Position numbers and translations under genes: made by a program. Below are positions 15,876 to 19,296 of a DNA stretch of 64,000 bases, piece after piece. The stretch comes from Komagataeibacter nataicola (lineage in GTDB: Bacteria > Pseudomonadota > Alphaproteobacteria > Acetobacterales > Acetobacteraceae). The notes below the pieces were generated by a model, which worked only from the letters and a program-made list of their open reading frames with translations, searched no databases and was not told the origin of the DNA. Within the stretch, counting starts at the first letter, position 1; every line of letters starts with the position of its first letter. The stretch covers positions 124,001-188,000 of the forward strand of contig NZ_NIRT01000002.1 of NCBI RefSeq assembly GCF_003207795.1, given 5' to 3'.

Positions 15876-16829
15876 TTAGTGGGCAATGAAGGCGTGGTCA
15901 GCCAGCAGGCCAAGGAACAGGAAAAACAGATAGGCCAGCGAATAGCGGAAAGAGCGGCGTGCCGGGCCATCGCCCGTCAGGCTGACCCCGTTGGCATCCT
16001 GTTTGTCGCGCAGCACGCCTATGGCGCACAGGATGAACCCCGCGCCGAGCACGCTGGCCACGACCGTGTACAGCCAGCCTGCAAGATGCATGAAAGATGG
16101 CACCAGCGAGATGGCGGTCAGAATGATGGTGTACCACAGGATCTGCCAGCGCGTGTGTCGAGCGCCCCTGACCACGGGCAGCATGGGAATGCCTGCCCGC
16201 CCGTAATCCTTGCACGCATAAAGCGACAGCGACCAGAAATGCGGCGGCGTCCACAAAAAGATGATGCCGAACATGACGACCGGCATGATGGCTATCGACC
16301 CCGTGGCCGCCGCCCAGCCGATCATGGGCGGAAAGGCGCCCGCAGCCCCCCCGATCACGATGTTCTGCGGTGTCGAGCGCTTGAGCCACATCGTGTAGAT
16401 CACGGCATAGAAGAAGATGGAAAACGCAAGGATGCCCGCCGCCAGCGCATTGGTGGCCAGCCACAGCAGGATGACCGAGGCCACCGAAAGGCCAATGCCG
16501 TAGCCCAGTGCCGCATCCGGCGCGATCCGCCCATCGGGGATGGGGCGGGTGACGGTGCGCTTCATCACCGCGTCGATGTCGCGGTCATACCACATGTTGA
16601 TGGCGCCCGCCGCACCCGAGGCCATGCAGACGCACAGGATGCTGACAGCGGCAACCAGCGGATTGATCGGCCCTGGCGCCATGGCCAGGCCGGCCGCACC
16701 GGTAAACACCACCAGCGAGATGACGCGCGGCTTGAGCAGCAGCAGCCAGTCACGCGCCAGCGTGCCGACCCGGCTGGAATCATAGGCAAGGGCGGCCTCG
16801 CTGGCCGGGTTGGTTACGGTGCCGCTCAT
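15876..16829 (-). CDS. ctaB: Protoheme IX farnesyltransferase (heme O synthase)
   Basis: CtaB/CyoE adds a farnesyl chain to heme b to make heme O, needed by bo3 ubiquinol oxidase and as precursor of heme A. The 317-residue protein is a UbiA-family prenyltransferase with several membrane helices and the Asp-rich motif NMWYDRDIDAVMKRT followed by RPIPDGRI, plus the second loop around TMWLKRSTPQNIVIGGAAGAFPPMIGWAA. ATG at 16829 is favoured by an AAAAGG at good spacing; ATG at 16835 overlaps the upstream stop codon as ATGA and is possible. It is translationally close to the degenerate COX subunit I gene. Because acetic acid bacteria depend on ubiquinol oxidase, this gene is probably essential even if the upstream oxidase-like gene is not. 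Confidence 0.96.
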   Translation of the reverse strand: MSGTVTNPASEAALAYDSSRVGTLARDWLLLLKPRVISLVVFTGAAGLAMAPGPINPLVAAVSILCVCMASGAAGAINMWYDRDIDAVMKRTVTRPIPDGRIAPDAALGYGIGLSVASVILLWLATNALAAGILAFSIFFYAVIYTMWLKRSTPQNIVIGGAAGAFPPMIGWAAATGSIAIMPVVMFGIIFLWTPPHFWSLSLYACKDYGRAGIPMLPVVRGARHTRWQILWYTIILTAISLVPSFMHLAGWLYTVVASVLGAGFILCAIGVLRDKQDANGVSLTGDGPARRSFRYSLAYLFFLFLGLLADHAFIAH

Positions 16830-16831
16830 GG

Positions 16832-18193
16832 TCATGCCTTTTCGCGCGCGGGGGAGGATACCTGCCATTCAGCCGTGCGGGCGCCTGGCCCCCAGTAATT
16901 ATCCGGCAGGGGACGGCCCGGACGCAGGCCTGCCTGCACCACGATGCCTGCGAACACCAGCACCGACAGGCCCATCAGCACCGCACCCAATACGCCCGGC
17001 GCTCCATGGAACGCCAGCAGCGACAGCACGGTTCCGCCGACCGTCAGCCCGAAATGCAGGCGGCTTGCGCCCACCGGGGCCACATGGCCCACCATCTTGC
17101 CAATCCAGTAATAGAAACCTGCGAACAGCGCGAAAACGGCAGCATACAGCGTTGCGGCATGCACATCGGCCATGCCGCCGGGCCGCAGTGACATGACGGA
17201 GCCAGCCAGCAGCAGGGCAACAAAGCCCACCGCCCATTCCATCGGCACGGAGGCGCGCATGTGCCCCAGCCGCACCGTCTGCGCCCATGCCACCAGCACG
17301 ACCAGCACCGGCACCACGATCAGCCCGAGCTGCACCGCAGGCGAAGGAGCAGCCAGATGCGCAAGCCCGCCATGCAGCAGGTCATGCACCCATACGGAAC
17401 CGCCACCCACCGACATGACCACCAGCGCCCCCAGCACAAGGCGCGGCATCTGCAGCGGGCGGTCACAGAAGGTCTCGACAACCTGCGATACGATGCCGAT
17501 GGAAGGCAGCAGCAGCAGCGCGATCTCGGGGCCGGAAAAGGCATGCAGCAGCACATCGATATGGGTGGAGATATCGCCGCCCCCCAGCCAGATGCGCGTC
17601 AGCCCCCCCGCCATGACCGGCATGACCATGACCGCCATCATGCCCGCAAGCCCCTGCGCCCATACAAACAGGGGCAGGTCGCGCAGGCGCTGGCCCATCG
17701 GGCCCATGTTGAGCACGGTGGCCACCATGCAGATGCCCTGCATCAGCATGCCCAGGCACCAGCCCAGCAGCGCCAGCAGGGAAACCTGTGCGGGGAGTGC
17801 GGGCGAAAGCCCGGCCAGCACGGCCACGAAACTGGCCGCGACCAGCCCCCACCCCGCCAGCGCCAGACGCGGCAGCGCAAGCGCGCGGGCGCGCAGCAGC
17901 AGCGGCACGAACCAGTTGCCAAATCCGCCCGTAAGGGCTGGCAGCGCACAGAAAAAGACCATCATCATGCCATGGCGCCGCGCAATGCGCTCCATGGCGC
18001 CCGGGGTGTCGCCGCCGGCCCAGGCCTCGATCAGGGCATGGGGCAGCAGACCTGCCTGCAGCCCCACCGCCAGCAATCCGCCCACAAGACCCGCCACAAT
18101 GGCCATGACGAGGTACAGCATGCCGATGGTCCTGTAGCGACAGGCCACCGTGCCCTGCACCGCATCTGCCCCGAACTGTGTGCCTGTGGGCAT
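16832..18193 (-). CDS. Degenerate cytochrome c oxidase subunit I homologue lacking the oxygen-reduction centre
   Basis: The 453-residue polytopic protein is plainly homologous to COX subunit I: TIGMLYLVMAI at the start, HGMMMVFF..PALTGGFGNWFVPL in helix II, PLFVWA, LPSIGIVS and FAGFYYWIGKM. By hand alignment the low-spin heme ligands are kept (His74, His345). The heme a3 ligand is Asp343, the CuB His of HPEVY is Gly221 and its cross-linked Tyr is Ala225, and the His-His pair is His270-Asp271. The D-channel Asp of the helix-III entry and the K-channel Lys are also gone (Val299). Oxygen reduction is therefore not expected. The open frame is intact. ATG at 18193 has GGGAG at ideal spacing. No subunit II or III gene is nearby; ctaB follows. 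Confidence 0.85.
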   Translation of the reverse strand: MPTGTQFGADAVQGTVACRYRTIGMLYLVMAIVAGLVGGLLAVGLQAGLLPHALIEAWAGGDTPGAMERIARRHGMMMVFFCALPALTGGFGNWFVPLLLRARALALPRLALAGWGLVAASFVAVLAGLSPALPAQVSLLALLGWCLGMLMQGICMVATVLNMGPMGQRLRDLPLFVWAQGLAGMMAVMVMPVMAGGLTRIWLGGGDISTHIDVLLHAFSGPEIALLLLPSIGIVSQVVETFCDRPLQMPRLVLGALVVMSVGGGSVWVHDLLHGGLAHLAAPSPAVQLGLIVVPVLVVLVAWAQTVRLGHMRASVPMEWAVGFVALLLAGSVMSLRPGGMADVHAATLYAAVFALFAGFYYWIGKMVGHVAPVGASRLHFGLTVGGTVLSLLAFHGAPGVLGAVLMGLSVLVFAGIVVQAGLRPGRPLPDNYWGPGARTAEWQVSSPAREKA

Positions 18194-18322
18194 ACGATGT
18201 ACTCCCTGCTGCCATGCGCCGGTTATGGCATGGCCAATCGTTACCATGATTTCATCATATACCGCGACTTATACACAAAAACGACCCTGTGGGCCGCCTG
18301 TGTGGTCGCGCAATTGTCATTT

Positions 18323-18359: not shown

Positions 18360-19073
18360 TCAGGCCACCATCGGGCTGGCGCAGTCATCCGCCTCACGCT
18401 CGAGCGTGACGAGGGTGAACAGGCCCGCGGGGGGAACCGACTGCAGGGTGGCGCGGCGCAGGTCAGCAGGGGGCAGCAGGGATTCAATGGCGAAATCAGG
18501 ATGCCAGCCCAGCGAGTGCGAAGCCCGCGCCATGCCGCGCTCGACCGCAAGCCTGACCCCGCCTTCAGCAAGGAAATGGTTGACGAACAGGATATGCCCG
18601 CCCGGCTTGACCACGCGCTTGAGCTCGGCTAGCAGCGCGCGCGGGTGCGGCACCACCGAGGCCACGAACATGGCCACCGCAATATCGAACGCGCCATCCT
18701 CGAAGCCGGTGGCCTCGGCATCCATTTCAAGCAGGGCGTCGACATTGGACAGCTTCATGCGGGCCACGCGCTGGCGGGCGCGCTCGAGCATGTCACCCGA
18801 CAGGTCGATGCCGGTAATATGCTTGTCGGCCCGGTAATACGGCAGGGCAAGGCCGGTGCCCACGCCCACTTCCAGCACCCTGCCGCCAGGCAGACGGTTC
18901 ACCGCCTCGACCGCGCGCTTGCGGCCAAAGGCGGAAATGCTGCCAAACAGCGCATCATACACACTGGCCCAGCGGCGATAGGCCGCCTTGACCGCGTTTG
19001 CATCCATCGCGGAACGGGGGGACGGGATATCCACAACCCTCTCGGCGGCTTCATTGGGCAGGACATCGCTCAT
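18360..19073 (-). CDS. pmtA: Phosphatidylethanolamine N-methyltransferase (Rhodobacter-type PmtA)
   Basis: PmtA methylates phosphatidylethanolamine three times with S-adenosylmethionine to give phosphatidylcholine, a major lipid of acetic acid bacteria. The 237-residue protein has the Rossmann motif LEVGVGTGLALPYY and the pattern of the Rhodobacter-type soluble family: YRRWASVYDALFGSIS near residue 35, GIDLSGDMLERARQRV, AVAMFVASVVPHP and LKPGGHILFVNHF-like KPGGHILFVNHFLAEGG. It is not a membrane-type Opi3 enzyme. ATG at 19073 is preceded by GGGAG. A stem-loop separates it from the COX I-like gene. A general ubiquinone-type methyltransferase is the only realistic alternative. Confidence 0.88.
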   Translation of the reverse strand: MSDVLPNEAAERVVDIPSPRSAMDANAVKAAYRRWASVYDALFGSISAFGRKRAVEAVNRLPGGRVLEVGVGTGLALPYYRADKHITGIDLSGDMLERARQRVARMKLSNVDALLEMDAEATGFEDGAFDIAVAMFVASVVPHPRALLAELKRVVKPGGHILFVNHFLAEGGVRLAVERGMARASHSLGWHPDFAIESLLPPADLRRATLQSVPPAGLFTLVTLEREADDCASPMVA

Positions 19074-19296
19074 CGGGCTGCTCCCATGTCGTGGCCATGG
19101 AAAAGGGCATGGCCAGCCCCCTTCCGTGCTGCATCTGCCATGATCAAATCCGTCCCATCGTGCTGCATTACAATTCCACCTGACCTGCCCACGCGCCACA
19201 CGGCCCGCGCAACTGCCTGTAATCCCTATCCGGTGTCACGCCACAGGGCGCTACAGCCACGACCACCGTGCCTGTCATGAACACCGGTTCAATTCT

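Follow-up and report, generated by a model that had tools for sequence, protein, structure and literature searches.

A COX1 homologue encoded beside ctaB in acetous Acetobacteraceae keeps its low-spin heme ligands and lacks the oxygen-reducing centre

The window analysed here, a stretch of 64,000 nucleotides from Komagataeibacter nataicola (contig NZ_NIRT01000002.1), contains a homologue of heme-copper oxidase subunit I (COX1/CtaD) followed directly by ctaB, the gene for heme O synthase. We refer to the first gene as the pseudo-oxidase. Its residues are numbered from the start at 18193 and were aligned residue by residue to the COX1 chain of R. sphaeroides, whose numbered residues are given the roles that we take them to have (low-spin heme, CuB, heme a3, tyrosine and K-channel). 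The features are as follows, with counts referring to the 111-row alignment of pseudo-oxidases.

16832..18193, minus strand: pseudo-oxidase, a COX1/CtaD homologue of 453 aa read as a putative single-heme protein (Pfam match, structure-chain alignment, 111-row alignment, predicted model)
17972..17974, minus strand: codon of His74, equivalent to the low-spin heme ligand H102 in helix II (His in 110/110 rows covering the position)
17531..17533, minus strand: codon of Gly221, at the lost CuB ligand H284 (His in 0/111)
17519..17521, minus strand: codon of Ala225, at the lost cross-linked Tyr288 (Tyr in 0/111)
17381..17386, minus strand: codons of His270-Asp271, at the CuB pair H333-H334 (His in 54/111 and 10/111)
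17165..17167, minus strand: codon of Asp343, at the lost heme a3 ligand H419 (His in 2/111)
17159..17161, minus strand: codon of His345, equivalent to the low-spin heme ligand H421 in helix X (His in 110/110 rows covering the position)
16832..16835, minus strand: four-base ATGA overlap of the pseudo-oxidase stop and the likely ctaB start, seen in the sequence
15876..16835, minus strand: ctaB, heme O synthase (TIGR01473), with the reading frame open from 16868 and the likely start at ATG 16835

The original prediction had given the right coordinates for the pseudo-oxidase and no strand; the gene is on the minus strand, where a single frame of 453 aa is open from the ATG at 18193 to 16832. A strand or frame error was rejected, as in this interval frame 1 of the plus strand contains a stop, unlike the minus-strand frame. 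The same interval is also overlapped by antisense ORFs, the longest of 382 aa, for which we found no support as real genes. An alternative ATG at 18247 would give a protein of 471 aa; the start at 18193 is favoured because the N-terminal Met-Pro is invariant in 11 pseudo-oxidase sequences from three genera (start codons chosen by hand). Upstream on the same strand (18360-19199) lies a gene for a methyltransferase resembling the phospholipid N-methyltransferase PmtA, which scored below the curated cut-off.

The pseudo-oxidase has both the sequence homology and the fold of a heme-copper oxidase subunit I. The COX1 domain (PF00115, E = 1.1e-36) was the only Pfam match, and the closest solved relatives were the COX1 chains of R. 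sphaeroides and Paracoccus (best profile E = 5.1e-75). The predicted model showed the 12-helix COX1 fold, consisting of the helix bundle only, with a mean pLDDT of 81.4, and the 31-row alignment behind it included 22 ordinary COX1 rows and may lean the model towards them. A model built from nine pseudo-oxidases alone was weaker, with a mean pLDDT of 68 and much of helix II below 50. The protein fell far short of the curated models for active oxidases, scoring 153.4 bits against a cut-off of 670.75 for CtaD (TIGR02891) and 79.7 bits against 1020.35 for CyoB. CyoB, subunit I of the bo3/ba3 oxidase, is encoded in the same genome by a separate full-length gene. Compared with the CtaD/COX1 chain of about 530 aa, the pseudo-oxidases are shorter (388-493 aa across 90 sequences).

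The heme ligands had been assigned by hand in the original prediction, and residue-by-residue comparison with the R. sphaeroides COX1 chain showed these assignments to be correct. His74 and His345 align with the low-spin pair H102 and H421, and both are histidine in every row that covers them; the rows missing one of the two positions are the broken copy L181 and the contig-end fragment L211, one each. The loss of the oxygen-reducing centre was likewise borne out: Asp343 aligns with H419, Gly221 and His270-Asp271 with the three CuB ligands H284 and H333-H334, of which H333 alone is kept in the window protein, and Ala225 with Tyr288. Val299 occupies the position of the K-channel lysine K362, also as predicted, and the D-pathway residue E286 is kept as Glu223 in the window protein and is Glu in 66/111 rows of the clade. 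Compared with the COX1 chains of R. sphaeroides (1m56) and Paracoccus (1ar1), the pseudo-oxidase has no heme a3 ligand, no cross-linked tyrosine, no K-channel lysine and no full CuB site. We rejected the idea that misalignment hides intact ligands elsewhere in the protein, since separate MAFFT alignments, the alignments to solved chains and the constant spacing around the ligands all agree. In 89/90 pseudo-oxidases, the propionate-binding Arg pair of COX1 is deleted along with its loop, and thus a bound heme would sit differently, in a site not identical to that of COX1.

We searched 60 relatives and 397 Acetobacteraceae genomes with protein queries, 46 genomes with a profile, and all 397 for CtaB. 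The pseudo-oxidase was found in 111 Acetobacteraceae genomes from 21 genera (Lichenicoccus excluded); 19 of these genomes are Komagataeibacter, five of which came from the draw of relatives and not from the family draw. In order to reduce selection by the oxidase itself, 37 further loci were chosen by CtaB similarity among genomes that had not been fetched. An intact pseudo-oxidase lay upstream of ctaB in 34 of these, and the remaining three were L181 with a broken frame, L177 at a contig end and L209 (Lichenicoccus) with an ordinary intact COX1. Among the 110 loci uncut by a contig end, 109 have a single open frame. In the sole broken copy, L181 (G361, g109), the gene runs across two frames; the genome is a draft, 85% complete, and the break may reflect either misassembly or genuine loss. 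The 111-row count takes in near-duplicates, fragments and L181, all of which are omitted from the 90-row alignment used below. In addition, another COX1 homologue was seen in six of the 19 Komagataeibacter genomes (G001:C134, G003:C3, G004:C1, G011:C268, G012:C1 and G017:C25); its open frame spans 548-577 aa and its identity to the window's pseudo-oxidase is 31-33%. This is apparently a separate oxidase, and it was not found in the window's own genome.

The pseudo-oxidases have diverged widely, with a median pairwise identity of 28% among the 56 sequences of an earlier set. The only invariant columns in the 90 sequences (20 genera) are H74, H345, W178 and W268, and these four sit at the floor of the site rates, as does column 58; the lost CuB position (H284) ranks 376 of 453. 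Six of the 259 columns that are invariant in eight ordinary COX1 proteins are kept in 56/56 pseudo-oxidases, and they include both heme ligands, which would happen by chance in about 1 in 2,200 draws if relatedness is ignored. Within 7 and 8 genera the two His codons alternate between CAT and CAC, with zero amino-acid change at either histidine in the 90 sequences, and neither the H74-P85 nor the H345-Y361 spacing varies in any of the 90. COX1-invariant residues are best kept in helix II (0.51) and helix X (0.42), followed by helix XII (0.39, four columns) and helix IV (0.37).

Codon models were run for six of the 21 genera on fixed trees, with gap-free columns, the last 13 codons dropped and one omega per gene and genus (9, 4, 11, 9, 7 and 8 sequences for g1, g97, g67, g65, g55 and g79; the Komagataeibacter model used 9 of 19 sequences). 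The omega of the pseudo-oxidase was 0.117 in g1, 0.123 in g97 (Novacetimonas), 0.156 in g67 (Gluconacetobacter), 0.094 in g65, 0.108 in g55 and 0.074 in g79. These values are about two to four times those of ctaB from the same loci (0.033-0.064), yet they are far from neutral, and omega = 1 was rejected in all six genera (2dlnL 440 to 1254). The dN/dS values are thus far below 1 and do not indicate decay, and apart from L181 no broken copy was seen. As judged from these sequences, the pseudo-oxidase is under purifying selection and not decaying, in agreement with the prediction that it is not a simple pseudogene.

The adjoining ctaB is a heme O synthase gene (327 bits against the TIGR01473 cut-off of 210.3), and its position is nearly fixed: it lies directly downstream of the pseudo-oxidase on the same strand in 110/111 genomes, the exception being a contig-end fragment. 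In a set of 56 loci, ctaB was on the pseudo-oxidase strand in 56/56, with its first possible start between -124 and +16 bases from the pseudo-oxidase stop. Exactly one heme O synthase match was found in 43 of 46 genomes and none in three. This linkage is partly inherited because it reproduces the ancestral COX operon order, which counts against linkage alone as evidence for a joint function.

No ctaB match at 1e-100 was obtained in 26 of the 397 genomes, and in the six of these that were tested (G071, G076, G107, G111, G157 and G249) a profile search did not find the pseudo-oxidase; the same search recovered three genomes that have it. A bo3-type CyoB was not found in the same six genomes either. 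Three of them have no COX1-family gene, and three have a single one of 785-833 aa scoring far below CyoB. The G076 assembly is only 82% complete and the G249 genome is small (1.7 Mb). G076 retains ctaA and SURF1. In the same family, G073 has ctaB and no pseudo-oxidase; its ctaB lies at the end of a contig that also carries SURF1, there are three other COX1-family genes, and in these respects G073 resembles a genome with the usual COX system. In the sampled acetous group, the presence and absence of CtaB, the bo3 oxidase and the pseudo-oxidase thus coincide.

A ctaB tree was built from eight genomes with an ordinary COX1 plus 42 of the 90 that have the pseudo-oxidase. A single branch (support 95/78, present in 96% of bootstrap trees) separated all the pseudo-oxidase genomes from the rest, and therefore one loss suffices. 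Based on this tree, the oxygen-reducing centre was probably lost once, in an ancestor of the acetous Acetobacteraceae. Among the intact relatives drawn, Lichenicoccus (g110) is the nearest, with a weak placement (83/53). Lichenicoccus has an intact COX1 together with both SURF1 and CtaG/Cox11, the latter for CuB insertion. SURF1 was not found in 30/30 pseudo-oxidase genomes tested, and CtaG/Cox11 was not found in 16/16 tested, unlike in CtaD/COX1 systems. In the window's genome a single COX2-domain gene was found, adjoining its CyoB, and no partner subunit II other than CyoA was seen. To judge from gene content, the copper side of the COX operon is gone, and the heme site and ctaB stayed.

Of the 21 pseudo-oxidase genomes tested, 11 yielded a match to the heme A synthase gene ctaA (PF02628) and 10 did not: it was found in g1, g97, g67, g55, g65, g81 and g14 and was not found in g79, g47, g50, g9, g57, g62, g71, g85 and g103 (one or two genomes each). 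This patchiness might separate users of ba3 from users of bo3. Both low-spin histidines are kept in genomes with and without ctaA. At the COX1 position that we take to be the Arg binding the formyl group of heme a, Arg is present in 9/90 pseudo-oxidases. Because both histidines persist where ctaA was not found and the formyl-position Arg is rare, heme B or heme O is the likelier ligand than heme A alone, and a role specific to heme A is unlikely.

A deranged COX1-like protein of Acetobacter reportedly goes back to Matsutani et al. 2014, a study that is also said to have found the ctaB of A. pasteurianus functional in E. coli. The passage of PMC10715153 that deals with this protein describes it in Acetobacter spp. 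as lying beside ctaB and lacking all metal ligands, and offers a guess that it stabilises CtaB. The pseudo-oxidase and the protein of that passage share the position next to ctaB and the lost oxidase function, a match made by position and description and not through a named Acetobacter sequence. They differ in that the published protein is described without any metal-binding residue, whereas the pseudo-oxidase keeps both low-spin ligands throughout, and on the alignments presented here the published view does not fit. Other papers report that the ctaB and ctaA of A. pasteurianus are functional (PMC6915089), list its ctaB and ctaD under successive tags (PMC5158111) and count the species as having cytochrome c oxidase (PMC4596401). 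We found no report of kept low-spin ligands in this gene in the open-access literature searched.

Beyond what the sequences themselves display, namely homology to COX1, loss of the CuB, heme a3, Tyr and K-channel residues, retention of the low-spin ligands, selection and ctaB linkage, we consider it very probable that the pseudo-oxidase binds heme. On this view, a COX1 (CtaD) whose oxygen-reducing centre disappeared was retained as a membrane protein, with a single bis-histidine low-spin heme site left to it, and would bind one heme, B or O, and not heme A alone. The best reading, held with about even confidence, is that this protein may cooperate with CtaB in handling heme O: it would hold heme beside CtaB and help to hand heme O towards CyoB of the bo3/ba3 ubiquinol oxidase, in a lineage in which no Surf1 was found. 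Such a cut-down function is plausible, as it would keep just the low-spin heme step, and this heme is described as the first to form in subunit I (PMC9145763). The same paper states that for E. coli bo3 no specific assembly protein is known besides heme O synthase. Surf1c is described as a heme chaperone in PMC5249081; the proposed role of the pseudo-oxidase resembles that of Surf1 in recruiting heme between a heme synthase and an oxidase subunit I, and Surf1 (PF02104) belongs to an unrelated family. A stronger version, in which an oxidase subunit turned heme O carrier loads at CtaB, passes heme to the bo3/ba3 oxidase and replaces Surf1 throughout the acetous Acetobacteraceae, is a tentative extension with the balance somewhat against it. 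Besides the deleted propionate-Arg loop, the inherited operon order and the ctaB of G073 without a pseudo-oxidase, two further points count against heme O handling: CtaB may not need the pseudo-oxidase to work, since the ctaB of A. pasteurianus was reported to be functional, and to our knowledge E. coli bo3 has no such pseudo-oxidase. The predicted CtaB-linked heme role is thus retained here as the best fit among the readings, with the identity of the heme and its handover stated conditionally.

The fixed adjacency and the close or overlapping ctaB starts would also suit a heme-free structural partner that stabilises CtaB in the membrane, as suggested in the cited passage of PMC10715153, or that keeps ctaB translated through stop-start coupling. 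We regard this as rather unlikely, as it leaves unexplained why, amid drift at most other positions, it is precisely the two heme ligands that do not vary, and an omega near 0.1 along the gene would not be expected from coupling alone. Another unlikely reading is an electron-carrying b-type (or o-type) cytochrome of the membrane, unrelated to heme handling. The bis-His low-spin site is the electron-transfer site in COX1 and is the very part that is kept; however, no subunit II partner besides CyoA was found in the window's genome, no second redox centre was recognised, and neither the lasting ctaB linkage nor the joint absence with ctaB in the six genomes tested would be expected of such a protein. 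A heme sensor that sets CtaB activity by heme supply would draw on the same heme site and fixed ctaB link as the handover reading, but nothing specific to regulation was seen in a protein with a COX1 domain only and a model of a helix bundle only, which makes a sensor quite improbable. Finally, the high divergence, the lost active site, the loop deletions and an omega above that of ctaB could suggest a relict under relaxed selection, as the original prediction had allowed, but the open frame in 109/110 loci and the synonymous-only change at both His codons speak against this, and the omega of 0.07-0.16 refutes it for six genera, which leaves it hardly credible.

Returning to a single-heme protein that may act in heme O handling beside CtaB, the prediction of a new use of the COX1 fold needs qualifying, as the gene's existence was already known (PMC10715153, in the passage cited above); what appears to be new, at the level of aligned sequences, is that selection acts on its low-spin ligands, which are preserved across the genomes examined. 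The finding matters as a case of a heme-copper oxidase subunit that survives under selection in 21 genera (omega tested in six) with its low-spin ligands and without its oxygen-reducing centre. If the heme O carrier reading were true, it would be, as far as we know, the first catalytic heme-copper oxidase subunit turned cofactor chaperone. As a naturally occurring form of the COX1 fold with putatively one heme, the pseudo-oxidase may provide material for studying heme insertion. Little is understood of how heme O gets from the enzyme that makes it to bo3-type oxidases, and the pseudo-oxidase makes this question testable in a setting of industrially important vinegar and cellulose bacteria.
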